From NCBI RefSeq assembly GCF_022879595.1, contig NZ_CP084265.1, positions 1,922,001-1,986,000 on the forward strand: a stretch of 64,000 nucleotides of DNA, in the 5' to 3' direction. Positions 20,296 through 24,961 of the stretch are shown here, in pieces. Below the pieces are notes generated by a model. It did not search any database. It was not told where the DNA came from and worked only from the letters and a program-made list of their open reading frames with translations. The stretch comes from Caballeronia sp. Lep1P3 (lineage in GTDB: Bacteria > Pseudomonadota > Gammaproteobacteria > Burkholderiales > Burkholderiaceae). The position numbers were made by a program, and so were the translations under genes. How positions within the stretch are numbered: position 1 is the stretch's first letter; every line of letters begins with the position of its first letter.

Positions 20296-20492
20296 ACGTC
20301 CAGTGAGGAGCGCGTCGGCGAATGCGCCGCCGGACGCCCGAAAGCGCCCGGCGGTATAATCTCGCGCTTCCGACAAGGGCATCAAACGCCCCGGCGACGC
20401 CCCCTTTCCGCAGGGTCGGCACCTTCTGCACGCTTCGCTGCCGGCTCGCCGCTCCTCGTCACACGCCCATCCCCGATCCGATCCGATTCGCC

Positions 20493-21347
20493 ATGACTGC
20501 CCAACTCATCGACGGCAACGCCCTCTCCAAGACTCTTCGCGCCGATGTCGCCGCGCGCGCGGCCGCCCTCACCGCTCGCGGACACACACCGGGACTCGCC
20601 GTCGTGCTGGTCGGCGACAATCCGGCGAGCGAAGTCTATGTGCGCAACAAGGTGAAGGCGTGCCAGGACAACGGCCTGCATTCGGTGTTCGACCGCTTCC
20701 CCGCGTCGCTCTCGGAAGACGAACTGCTCGCGCACATCGACACGCTGAACGCCGATCCGTCCATCCACGGCATCCTCGTGCAATTGCCGCTGCCCGCGCA
20801 CATCGACAGTCACAAGGTCATCGAGGCGATTGCGCCGGAGAAGGACGTCGACGGCTTTCACGTCGCCAATGCGGGCGCGCTCATGACCGGCAAGCCGCTC
20901 TTTCGCCCGTGCACGCCGTATGGCGTGATGAAGATGTTCGAAGCGCACGACATCGATCTCAAGGGCGCGAACGCGGTGGTCATCGGCCGCTCGAACATCG
21001 TCGGCAAGCCGATGGCGCTCCTGCTGCTCGAAGCCGGCGCGACCGTCACCATCTGTCACAGCAAGACGCGCGATCTCGCGAAGCACACGCGCGACGCGGA
21101 TGTCGTCGTTGCCGCCGTGGGCCGCCGCAACATCCTGACCGCCGACATGGTCAAGCCGGGCGCAACGGTGATCGATGTCGGCATGAATCGCGACGATGCC
21201 GGCAAGCTCTGCGGCGACGTCGATTTCGCGGGCGTGAAGGAAGTCGCGGGCTACATGACGCCGGTGCCGGGCGGCGTCGGCCCGATGACCATCACGATGC
21301 TGCTGGTCAATACGATCGAAGCCGCCGAGCGCGCGGCGAACGCGTAA
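20493..21347 (+). CDS. folD: bifunctional methylenetetrahydrofolate dehydrogenase/cyclohydrolase
   Basis: FolD converts 5,10-methylene-THF to 10-formyl-THF with NADP+ in the cytosolic one-carbon pathway. The 284-aa length is standard. Seen are the catalytic-site region [14 protein letters not shown] (Lys53 area), the [12 protein letters not shown] motif, DVDGFH, the Rossmann NADP site [18 protein letters not shown] and the C-terminal [10 protein letters not shown] signature. ATG at 20493 gives the family N-terminus [16 protein letters not shown]; the upstream extension is leader. A hairpin GGGGACG/CGTCCCC (21357-21375) follows and may end the transcript, although its T run is poor. Confidence 0.97.
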
Positions 21348-21356
21348 GCGCTTCGC

Positions 21357-21375
21357 GGGGACGCCAATCGTCCCC
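21357..21375 (+). terminator. hairpin after folD, possible weak terminator
   Basis: GGGGACG-CCAAT-CGTCCCC, followed by TTAAAA rather than a run of T. Confidence 0.4.
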
Positions 21376-21506
21376 TTAAAAACATTCGATTGGATTTTGC
21401 CCCTGCCGCCCCAATAATCTCCGAATAGCATCCGGACAACGGCCGGCGCGGGCCTCGACATTGCTGGCCCGTTCCGCGCTTCACTGAACACAGAACTGGG
21501 AGAGCC

Positions 21507-23630
21507 ATGAGCGATAACAACGCAGCAACGTCGGCCAACACAGCATCGAATCCGCTGCTCGATTTCTCGGACCTGCCGCGATTCGGCGAGATCAGGCCCG
21601 AGCACGTCACGCCGGCGCTCGACGTGCTGCTCGCGTCCGCCAAGAGCGCGGTCGACCGCGCGAGCGCGCCCGAGACGCACGCAACGTGGAAGGACGTCGT
21701 CGAGACGGTCGAGCAGGAATCGGAGAAGCTGTCGCGCGCGTGGGGCATCGTCGGGCATCTGAACGCGGTCGCCGACACGCCCGAACTGCGCGCCGCCCAT
21801 GCCGAAAACCTGCCGCGCGTCACGGAATTTTCCGCGAGCGTCGGCCAGAATCTCGCGCTGTACGAAAAGTACAAGGCCATCGCCGCGGGCGATGAATTCG
21901 CCGGCCTTTCGCCCGAGCGCAAGAAGATTCTAGAGAACGCGCTGCGCGACTTCCGCCTGTCCGGTGCGGAACTGCCCGAAGACCGCAAGCCGCGCTTCGC
22001 TCAGTTGCAGGAAGAACAGGCCGCGCTTTCCAAGGCGTTTTCGGATCATGTTCTCGATTCGACCAACGCGTATTCCTACGTCGTCACGCAAGAAAGCGAT
22101 CTCGCGGGCCTGCCCGATGACACGATCGAAGCCGCACGCGAAGCCGCGCAGAAGGAAGGCAAGGACGGCTGGAAGTTCACGCTGCATTTCCCCTCGTATT
22201 TTCCCGTGCTGCAGTACGCGCAGCATCGCCCGATGCGCGAAGCCATGTATCGCGCGTATGTCACGCGCGCGTCCGAACTCGGCGCAACCTACGGCAACGG
22301 CAAGGCCGAATGGGACAACACGCAGAACATCGTCGAGCATCTGAAGCTGCGTCAGGAAGAAGCGCGCACGCTCGGCTATCAGAACTTCGCGGAAGTGTCG
22401 CTCGCGCCGAAGATGGCGGAGTCGCCCGCGCAGGTCATCGCGTTTCTCGAAGACCTCGCTAAACGCGCGCGTCCGTATGCCGAAAACGACTGGATGGAGC
22501 TGCGCGCGTTCGCGGCCACCGAACTCGGCATGCCGGAGCTTCAGCCGTGGGACATCGCGTATGCCGCCGAGAAGCTGCGCCAGAAGCGTTATTCGTTCTC
22601 CGAGAACGAAGTGAAGCAATACTTCCCGCAGGAAGCGGTGTTGAAGGGCCTGTTCAAGGTCACCGAAACCTTGTTCAACGTCACGATCCGCCGCGACGAA
22701 GCCGCCGTCTGGAACCCCGACGTGCGCTTTTTCCGCGTCGAGAACAAGGACGGCACGCTCGTCGCGCAGTTCTATCTCGATCTCTACGCGCGCGAAGGCA
22801 AGCGCGGCGGCGCGTGGATGGACGACGCCCGCGCCCGTCACAAGCGCAGCGAAGGCGGCGTGCAGACGCCGGTCGCGTATCTCACCTGCAATTTCTCCGC
22901 GCCTGTGGGCGGCAAGCCCGCGCTCTTCACGCACGACGAAGTCATCACGCTGTTCCACGAATTCGGGCACGGCCTGCATCACATGCTCACGCGCGTGGAG
23001 GAACTCGGCGTGTCGGGCATCAACGGCGTCGAATGGGATGCGGTCGAGCTGCCGTCGCAGTTCATGGAGAACTTCTGCTGGGAGTGGGACGTGCTCACCG
23101 ACATGTCCGCGCACGTCGAAACCGGCGCGCCGCTGCCGCGCGCGCTCTTCGACAAGATGCTCGCCGCGAAGAACTTCCAGAGCGGTCTCGGCACGCTGCG
23201 CCAGATCGTCTTCTCGATGTTCGACATGGTGCTGCACACGTCCTACGATCCGAACGGCGCGCAGAACGTGAACGACCTCGCGCGCGAGATCAACGAGAAG
23301 TTCCATGTGATTCCGCAGGCGCCGTTCTCGCGCTGGCCGAACACCTTCAGCCATATCTTCGCGGGCGGCTACGCGGCGGGCTACTACAGCTACAAGTGGG
23401 CCGAAGTGCTTTCCGCCGATGCCTACGCCGCGTTCGAGGAAGCGGCGAAGTCGGCGAACGGCTCCGTGCTGGATGCGCAGACGGGCATCCGCTATCGCCG
23501 GGAGATTCTCGAAGTCGGCGGCAGCCGTCCCGCGATGGATTCGTTCAAGGCGTTCCGCGGACGCGAGCCGAACATCGACGCCCTTTTGCGTCATAACGGC
23601 ATGAGCGGCCAGACCGACACGCTGCACTGA
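21507..23630 (+). CDS. prlC: oligopeptidase A (M3 family zinc metallopeptidase)
   Basis: Cytosolic thimet-type oligopeptidase that degrades short peptides, including cleaved signal peptides. The 707-aa product has the M3 signature H484-E-F-G-H488 (TLFHEFGHGLHHML), with the third zinc ligand expected in the following GVEWDAVELPSQFMENF segment (E about 513). Late motifs FAGGYAAGYYSYKWAEVLSAD and the N-terminal PLLDFSDLPRFGEIRPEHV match PrlC/OpdA. ATG is preceded by GGGAGAG at 6 bp. It stands alone between folD and a bidirectional terminator. Dcp is the other M3 subgroup, but length and N-terminus favour OpdA. Confidence 0.95.
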   Translation: MSDNNAATSANTASNPLLDFSDLPRFGEIRPEHVTPALDVLLASAKSAVDRASAPETHATWKDVVETVEQESEKLSRAWGIVGHLNAVADTPELRAAHAENLPRVTEFSASVGQNLALYEKYKAIAAGDEFAGLSPERKKILENALRDFRLSGAELPEDRKPRFAQLQEEQAALSKAFSDHVLDSTNAYSYVVTQESDLAGLPDDTIEAAREAAQKEGKDGWKFTLHFPSYFPVLQYAQHRPMREAMYRAYVTRASELGATYGNGKAEWDNTQNIVEHLKLRQEEARTLGYQNFAEVSLAPKMAESPAQVIAFLEDLAKRARPYAENDWMELRAFAATELGMPELQPWDIAYAAEKLRQKRYSFSENEVKQYFPQEAVLKGLFKVTETLFNVTIRRDEAAVWNPDVRFFRVENKDGTLVAQFYLDLYAREGKRGGAWMDDARARHKRSEGGVQTPVAYLTCNFSAPVGGKPALFTHDEVITLFHEFGHGLHHMLTRVEELGVSGINGVEWDAVELPSQFMENFCWEWDVLTDMSAHVETGAPLPRALFDKMLAAKNFQSGLGTLRQIVFSMFDMVLHTSYDPNGAQNVNDLAREINEKFHVIPQAPFSRWPNTFSHIFAGGYAAGYYSYKWAEVLSADAYAAFEEAAKSANGSVLDAQTGIRYRREILEVGGSRPAMDSFKAFRGREPNIDALLRHNGMSGQTDTLH

Positions 23631-23655
23631 CGCACAAAGTCGTTCAAGCGCTCGA

Positions 23656-23684
23656 AGCCCCGGCCCGACAGCCGGGGCTTTTTA
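23656..23684. terminator. terminator between convergent prlC and the deaminase gene
   Basis: AGCCCCGG/CCGGGGCT stem with an 8-nt loop, followed by TTTTT rightward. It lies between two convergent stops 57 bp apart and may serve both, though the leftward T run is absent. Confidence 0.8.
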
Positions 23685-23686
23685 CT

Positions 23687-24961
23687 TCAACGTCTGATTC
23701 TGAAATCCACTTCGGCGGGCCGGCCTTCGAGCGCGAGCGTCGCGCGCACGGCCGGACTGCGGCTGATCACCTTCCCTGCCCGGATGACCGCCGTGCGCGA
23801 CGCGCGCAGGCGGATCGCTTCGACGGGATCGCGCGCGTCGAGCACGACGCAATCCGCGCGGCAGCCCGCTTCCACGCCATAGCCTTCCAGCCCGACAATG
23901 CGCGCGGGCGTGCTCGTCACGGCGTCGAAGCACGCGCGCATCGCATCGATCCCTGTCATCTGCGCGACGTGCAGGCCCATGTGCGCGACTTCCAGCATGT
24001 CGCCGGAGCCGAGGCTGTACCACGGATCCATCGCGCAGTCGTGGCCGAACGCCACGTCGATGCCCGCCGCCATCAGTTCGGGCACGCGCGTCATGCCGCG
24101 CCGCTTCGGGTAAGTGTCCGAGCGTCCCTGCAACGTGATGTTGATGAGCGGATTCGCAATCGCGGCGACGCCCGCCTCGCGCATCAGCGGAATCAGCTTG
24201 CTCACGTAGTAGTTGTCCATCGAATGCATCGACGTGAGATGGGAGCCTGTCACGCGGCCGTGCAATCCCAGCCGATGCGTCTCGGCCGCGAGCGTTTCGA
24301 TGTGACGCGACATCGGATCGTCGGATTCGTCGCAGTGCATGTCCACGCGCAAACCGTGCTCCGCCGCGTATTCGCACAGCAGCGTCACGGACGCGGCGCC
24401 ATCGGCCATCGTGCGCTCGAAGTGCGGAATGCCGCCGACGACATCGACGCCGAGCGCAATCGCGCGCTTCAGATTCTCGAAGGCGCCTGCGCTTCGCAAT
24501 ACGCCGTCCTGTGGAAACGCGACGAGTTGCAGATCCAGATACGGCTTCACGCGGCGCTTCACTTCGACGAGCGCTTCGGCAGCCAAAAGACGCGAATCGC
24601 AGACATCGACGTGCGAGCGGATCGCAAGCAGGCCGCGCGCGACGGCCCAGTCGCAATATTGCAGCGCGCGCTCGACGATGGCTTCCTGTGTAAGCACAGG
24701 CTTCAGTTCGCCCCACAGCGCAATGCCTTCGAGCAGCGTGCCGGACGCGTTCACGCGCGGCAGGCCGTAGGACAGCGTCGCGTCCATGTGGAAATGCGCG
24801 TCGACGAACGGCGCGCTCACGAGCGAGCCGTTCGCGTCGATCTCTTCGCGCGCAGTGGCGAAAAGATGCGGCTCGATGGCGGCAAAACGCCCCGCCTCGA
24901 TGCCGATATCGACGAGCGCCGGCGAACGAACGAGCGCCGCGCGGCGAATGATGAGATCCAT
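23687..24961 (-). CDS. codA: CodA-family cytosine deaminase, probably a 5-methylcytosine deaminase
   Basis: Amidohydrolase that deaminates a cytosine-type base. The 424-aa protein aligns with E. coli CodA at a constant offset of -5: metal ligands H56, H58 (FVDAHFHMD), H209 (HCDES), catalytic E212, H241 and D308, substrate-binding Q151 (FPQDG) and W314. The residue after the metal-binding Asp, Asp314 in CodA, is Cys309 here (codon 24035-24037), and Phe316 is Met311. Loss of Asp314 is the published mark of bacterial 5-methylcytosine deaminases. The start MDLIIRRAALVRS has GAGGG upstream; the frame to 25111 is leader. It is monocistronic, convergent with prlC, and no cytosine permease is adjacent. 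Confidence 0.9.
   Translation of the reverse strand: MDLIIRRAALVRSPALVDIGIEAGRFAAIEPHLFATAREEIDANGSLVSAPFVDAHFHMDATLSYGLPRVNASGTLLEGIALWGELKPVLTQEAIVERALQYCDWAVARGLLAIRSHVDVCDSRLLAAEALVEVKRRVKPYLDLQLVAFPQDGVLRSAGAFENLKRAIALGVDVVGGIPHFERTMADGAASVTLLCEYAAEHGLRVDMHCDESDDPMSRHIETLAAETHRLGLHGRVTGSHLTSMHSMDNYYVSKLIPLMREAGVAAIANPLINITLQGRSDTYPKRRGMTRVPELMAAGIDVAFGHDCAMDPWYSLGSGDMLEVAHMGLHVAQMTGIDAMRACFDAVTSTPARIVGLEGYGVEAGCRADCVVLDARDPVEAIRLRASRTAVIRAGKVISRSPAVRATLALEGRPAEVDFRIRR

Follow-up and report, generated by a model that had tools for sequence, protein, structure and literature searches.

A Cys314-type CodA-like deaminase gene of Caballeronia sp. Lep1P3 and its probable action on cytosine and 5-methylcytosine

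Described relatives and the gene in the window

Escherichia coli CodA, annotated as a cytosine/isoguanine deaminase and encoded in the codBA operon, carries Asp at position 314 and Phe at position 316. Its residues Leu81, Phe154, Gln156 and Trp319 are taken here to serve in base recognition. Three further proteins, Kpn00632, Rsp0341 and NCgl0075, reportedly deaminate 5-methylcytosine (work by Hitchcock et al. from 2014). Kpn00632 of Klebsiella pneumoniae is represented by PDB entries 4R7W, 4R85 and 4R88, and the ligand of 4R85 is 5-methylcytosine. Alignment of the 4R7W chain with a close plasmid relative (L131) gives Ser at 314 and Gln at 316; the gene of this relative, through which the phylogenetic position of Kpn00632 was judged, adjoins codB and a gene for a PucR regulator. 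In one published account, Kpn00632 is described as a 5-methylcytosine deaminase with Ser at the Asp314 site (numbered 315 there), and CodA in which the equivalent of Asp314 is changed to Ala gains 5-methylcytosine activity (PMC6186785).

The gene compared here with these systems lies in a 64,000-nucleotide stretch of Caballeronia sp. Lep1P3 DNA that was analysed as a whole (the window). It occupies positions 23687..24961 on the minus strand and encodes 424 amino acids from an ATG start. In a PDB search, E. coli CodA and its mutants ranked first (365-372 bits), ahead of Kpn00632 4R7W (330 bits) and AtzC (162 bits). The alignment to CodA covers residues 9-421 at 371 bits, and the two proteins are about 43% identical. 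The protein scores 797 bits against NCBIfam PRK07572 'cytosine deaminase' (NF005748; curated cut-off 438), a family that is not specific for the Cys type, as E. coli CodA passes it too (491 bits) and the Kpn00632 relative falls narrowly below (436 bits). Against PRK09230 (NF006685), the model for CodA proper, it remains under the curated cut-off (434 versus 483 bits).

All six metal ligands and catalytic residues of CodA (H61, H63, H214, E217, H246 and D313) recur in the window protein at a constant offset of -5, as H56, H58, H209, E212, H241 and D308, in agreement with the preliminary description. On the minus strand they are encoded by the His56-x-His58 metal-binding motif at 24788..24796, by His209 and Glu212 at 24326..24337, by His241 at 24239..24241 and by Asp308, the metal ligand/catalytic residue, at 24038..24040. 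L81, F154, Q156 and W319 are likewise present, Gln156 being kept as Gln151 (24509..24511, minus strand), and these four are identical in all 132 members of the clade described below. All catalytic and base-binding residues examined are therefore shared with CodA, and the catalytic residues and fold family are shared with Kpn00632. The proteins part at two positions. Cys309 (codon TGC, 24035..24037, minus strand) occupies the place of Asp314, and Met311 (24029..24031, minus strand) that of Phe316. The alignment bears out both substitutions, and the interval first singled out, 24035-24040, corresponds to codons 309 and 308. With a residue other than Asp at 314, the protein resembles the 5-methylcytosine deaminases that lack Asp314, although Kpn00632 itself carries other residues at 314 (Ser) and 316 (Gln).

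Neither chance nor a sequencing error accounts for codon 309, since Cys agrees in 132 of 132 relatives, and a pseudogene is rejected as well, as the frame is full length, has no stop and keeps its residues. A promoter scan found none, and the single terminator-like site was no better than chance.

A shift of the enzyme to some other substrate, such as creatinine, isoguanine or a triazine-like base, has a precedent in the wider family in the N-isopropylammelide amidohydrolase AtzC, which belongs to the same superfamily, and CodA itself is annotated for isoguanine as well as cytosine. Such a shift is nonetheless highly improbable here, given that the pyrimidine-binding residues examined are all identical to those of CodA, that Rsp0341 belongs to the same clade and that uracil genes occur in operons of part of this clade. 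AtzC is only about 30% identical to the window protein, and the annotated atzC locus (L238) has Asn at 314.

Position 314 and the clade of Rsp0341

Position 314 was surveyed in 171 distinct aligned stretches, after 32 identical rows were dropped and L001 and L231 excluded. Cys occupies it in every one of the 132 distinct relatives collected at 55% identity or more, all of which also keep CodA residues H61, H63, L81, F154, Q156, H214, E217, H246, D313 and W319. Their residue at 316 is Met in 115, Leu in 16 and Gln in one. Between 37 and 55% identity (n = 28), position 314 is Asp in 11 and Ser in 17, and below 37% (n = 11) it is Asn in 10 and Gly in one; the collected set contains no sequence between 46.7% and 58.0% identity. 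L81, F154, Q156 and W319 are conserved in all 160 sequences above 37%. The best 80 of at least 584 confirmed matches in a scan of named genomes have Cys without exception, as does the copy in the strain's own genome, while a distant paralogue in that genome has Gly. Matches at E<=1e-50 were obtained in 12 of 274 genomes in a survey of the class and in 97 of 398 in a survey of the phylum, two overlapping samples that both include the own genome; at E<=1e-40, matches extend to 379 plasmid records. Two Asp314 proteins (L191 and L235) stand outside the main CodA group and have Met or Lys, not Phe, at 316; they may represent independent gains of Asp.

Two trees were built from an alignment stripped of the four columns around position 314. 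A quick tree of 96 rows, 60 of them with Cys, unites the latter in one group; a careful tree, made from 58 of the 96 and including 27 with Cys, recovers them as one clade with support of 96/98. The nearest neighbour of the window protein is that of Caballeronia ptereochthonis (92% identical), and Kpn00632 lies on another branch. The quick tree carries a long-branch warning and places one Asn row (L236) inside the ingroup. The Asp rows require two changes and sit among the Ser rows, and the outgroup rows have Asn or Gly. Glu217 and Asp313 are also missing from seven of the ten Asn rows, which are therefore poor guides to the polarity of the change at 314. It had been proposed that this homologue has lost the residue that excludes 5-methylcytosine. 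We reject the view that the window gene itself underwent such a loss: Cys is fixed across the clade (132/132), and the trees give the change no polarity. The residue at 314 is the constant mark of an entire group of known enzymes, and the window gene is an ordinary member of it. Because the absence of Asp314 marks the clade as a whole and is not a local event, substrate ranges can be suggested for numerous proteobacterial genes whose annotation says no more than 'cytosine deaminase' or 'amidohydrolase'.

One sequence in this otherwise proteobacterial clade comes from a contig binned as Verrucomicrobiota, from an uncultured Opitutae genome (L053), which implies transfer or mis-binning. It encodes a Cys-type deaminase, 76% identical to the window protein, in an operon with a BMP-ABC importer.

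The clade can be tied to an assayed enzyme through one genome (G705; 4.6 Mb, 7 contigs). Its puhA protein (reaction-centre H) is identical at 260 of 260 positions to PDB chain 1e14_H, whose organism we take to be Rhodobacter sphaeroides, so that the genome is very probably that of R. sphaeroides. At E<=0.001 the window protein has one counterpart in this genome; the two are 64% identical over residues 1-421, and the counterpart reads GQDCVLDPWYS, with Cys at 314. This protein scores 752 bits against NF005748, the subfamily of the window protein, and its gene shares a contig with puhA at a distance of about 50 kb, a spacing that fits the locus tags RSP_0291 (puhA) and RSP_0341. On the grounds of genome position, uniqueness and these tags, it is almost certainly Rsp0341. 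Position 314 is thus Asp in CodA, Ser in Kpn00632 and Cys in both Rsp0341 and the window protein; Rsp0341 differs from the latter in having Leu, not Met, at 316.

Rather than falling in a clade with a different proven substrate, the window protein clusters with Rsp0341. Because of this shared clade, the window enzyme very probably acts on 5-methylcytosine. That part of the preliminary description stands as likely; the salvage from DNA turnover that was joined to it does not. The activity itself is not new, having reportedly been established for Rsp0341 about 2014.

Gene neighbourhoods of the Cys-type deaminases

The neighbourhoods of 126 Cys-type loci were scanned with references taken from annotated neighbours on plasmid records and from ORFs of the window. 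The set includes chosen plasmid-match records (L126-L130 and L245), a species may appear in it twice, and 15 of the loci have less than 4 kb on one side. A BMP-type ABC importer (same strand, at least two parts) stands beside the deaminase in 41 of the 126 and a prlC homologue in 35. An upp gene lies near it in 14, an amidase gene in 9 and URC1 or URC4 in at least 6, the URC counts being lower bounds because the loci from the scan of named genomes have flanks of at most 6 kb. No NCS1/CodB permease was found near the deaminase in any of the 126 loci, and in 44 of them, many from Oxalobacteraceae, importer, URC, upp, NCS1 and prlC genes were all absent. An NCS1 permease lies near 8 of 15 Ser-type and 6 of 11 Asp-type deaminases, comparison loci with shorter flanks (less than 4 kb on one side in 12 and 9 of them, respectively).

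Most of the 41 importer loci end with the deaminase gene, and L126, L160, L161 and L162 begin with it. In Azospirillum argentinense (L128) the order is URC1, URC4, upp, BMP, ATPase, two permeases and deaminase, and the same order is found on one strand in Cupriavidus sp. EM10 (L251, outside the 126). In L172, from a relative belonging to that family, the genes run URC4, upp, BMP, ATPase, permeases and deaminase, and R. sphaeroides has BMP, ATPase, two permeases and deaminase. Family searches back these labels, DUF1688 corresponding to URC4, GTP_CH_N with GTP_cyclohydro2 to URC1 and Bmp to the binding protein. In the yeast Lachancea kluyveri, uracil is degraded by URC genes (PMC7530994). The operon of URC1, URC4, upp, BMP/ABC importer and deaminase in part of the clade suggests that conversion of cytosine to uracil is the main job of the enzyme, and it offers a testable alternative to the label 'methylcytosine salvage'. 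Among titles and the opening lines of abstracts, no paper linking the URC pathway, a BMP importer and a cytosine deaminase was found, which is no proof of absence.

Several of these loci have peculiarities of their own. The ATPase gene of L128 is unannotated and reads as two ORFs, and each permease of L251 matches in two pieces, which may reflect decay or sequencing errors. In the named Cupriavidus loci, the deaminase follows upp and a BMP importer in five of five. In rhizobial loci (L127:4050-5462, L129, L130 and L245), the importer-deaminase operon contains an additional amidase gene (PF01425 in L127), situated between the genes for its BMP protein and its ATPase.

The window gene stands beside prlC instead of in a BMP-ABC importer operon like that of Rsp0341. 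A prlC-like oligopeptidase A gene (21507..23630, plus strand) converges on it, and a folD-like ORF, whose true start is probably internal, lies at 20322..21347 on the plus strand; both names come from reading the sequence only. Convergence on prlC is found in 34 of 36 loci from relatives named Caballeronia, Paraburkholderia, Trinickia or Burkholderia, the exceptions being L010 (a short locus) and L025, and the pairing also occurs in one of two Ralstonia loci. To the window gene, whose own neighbours are prlC and folD, the operon argument extends through kinship only. The whole folD-prlC-deaminase arrangement (20322-24961 in the window) recurs in the majority of Caballeronia, Paraburkholderia and Trinickia loci and in one of the two Ralstonia loci.

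Genome content and proposed role

We consider it probable (roughly 0.75) that the gene encodes a dual deaminase, acting on both cytosine and 5-methylcytosine, that serves mainly to convert cytosine to uracil. The protein would be an amidohydrolase that depends on metal and removes the amino group of free pyrimidine bases by hydrolysis, turning cytosine into uracil and also 5-methylcytosine into thymine and 5-fluorocytosine into 5-fluorouracil. 5-Methylcytosine would be accepted because C5, hemmed in by Asp in CodA, here faces a small Cys. The main role would be to supply uracil for a putative Upp-type salvage and to release ammonia, with 5-methylcytosine as a tolerated second substrate. What the analysis shows directly is the residues, the clade, the operons of relatives and the gene content of the own genome; the activities are inferred from Rsp0341, Kpn00632 and the CodA mutant, and the main role is our interpretation. 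The gene may also enable its host strains to activate 5-fluorocytosine and would thereby defeat counter-selection with codA.

The own genome (6.18 Mb in 6 contigs, 99.95% complete) contains one orthologue and one 33% identical paralogue of the deaminase. It yielded no match to the C5-DNA methylase family PF00145, which is present in 10 of 14 control genomes, and hence nothing that points to DNA as the origin of 5-methylcytosine; RNA m5C and plant DNA are possible sources. PYNP_C, the nucleoside phosphorylase family, has no match in it either (9 of 14 controls positive). URC4 was found neither there nor in any control genome, with a family model that scores the Azospirillum URC4 at 466 bits, and RutA and PreA gave sub-cut-off matches only, each exceeding the cut-off in 2 of 14 controls. 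With none of PYNP_C, URC4, RutA and PreA over cut-off, these routes would offer thymine no outlet, and with none of the last three, uracil too would be left without a ring-degradation route among those tested.

These absences bear on the idea first put forward for this gene, a dedicated salvage enzyme that takes 5-methylcytosine from internal DNA turnover and yields thymine for reuse. The clade shared with an assayed 5-methylcytosine deaminase and the residue other than Asp at 314 speak for it. A genome lacking both PF00145 and the PYNP_C phosphorylase that would take thymine to thymidine, together with operons in part of the clade that point to uracil metabolism instead, makes it distinctly unlikely. 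m5C occurs in rRNA, and RNA turnover is the internal source of 5-methylcytosine left to such an enzyme.

The enzyme could instead scavenge bases from outside the cell, among them 5-methylcytosine originating in plant DNA of the rhizosphere, with ammonia released, uracil reused and thymine left or excreted. Many of the carriers belong to genera known from soil or plants, and BMP-type importers lie beside the gene in the 41 loci mentioned above. The own genome, however, lacks the importer of the clade: its single Bmp-family match belongs to a different subfamily and is 33-41% identical to the references. It has four CodB-type permeases (PF02133), none of them in the window, in keeping with the initial remark that no codB-like permease is adjacent. 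Of the three scanned, two score highest with the general NCS1 model and second with allantoin permease, without reaching a cut-off, and the third is CytX, over its cut-off. Scavenging is for these reasons a possible but rather unlikely account; it overlaps with the dual deaminase proposed here and differs from it in the origin of the substrate.

A wider reading of the dual deaminase, which we advance tentatively and at somewhat less than even odds, is that the Cys-type '5-methylcytosine deaminases' are, in their physiology, the cytosine-deaminating genes of an operon for import and uracil catabolism (URC1-URC4-upp-BMP/ABC), the ABC importer replacing CodB. The deaminase of Caballeronia and Paraburkholderia would then have outlived the other genes of this operon and now stand beside prlC, with thymine formed from 5-methylcytosine a metabolic dead end.

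The paralogue is a second CodA-like amidohydrolase of the PRK05985 family (528 bits), encoded at L200:9386-10576 (contig C1, around 1088397-1089530).
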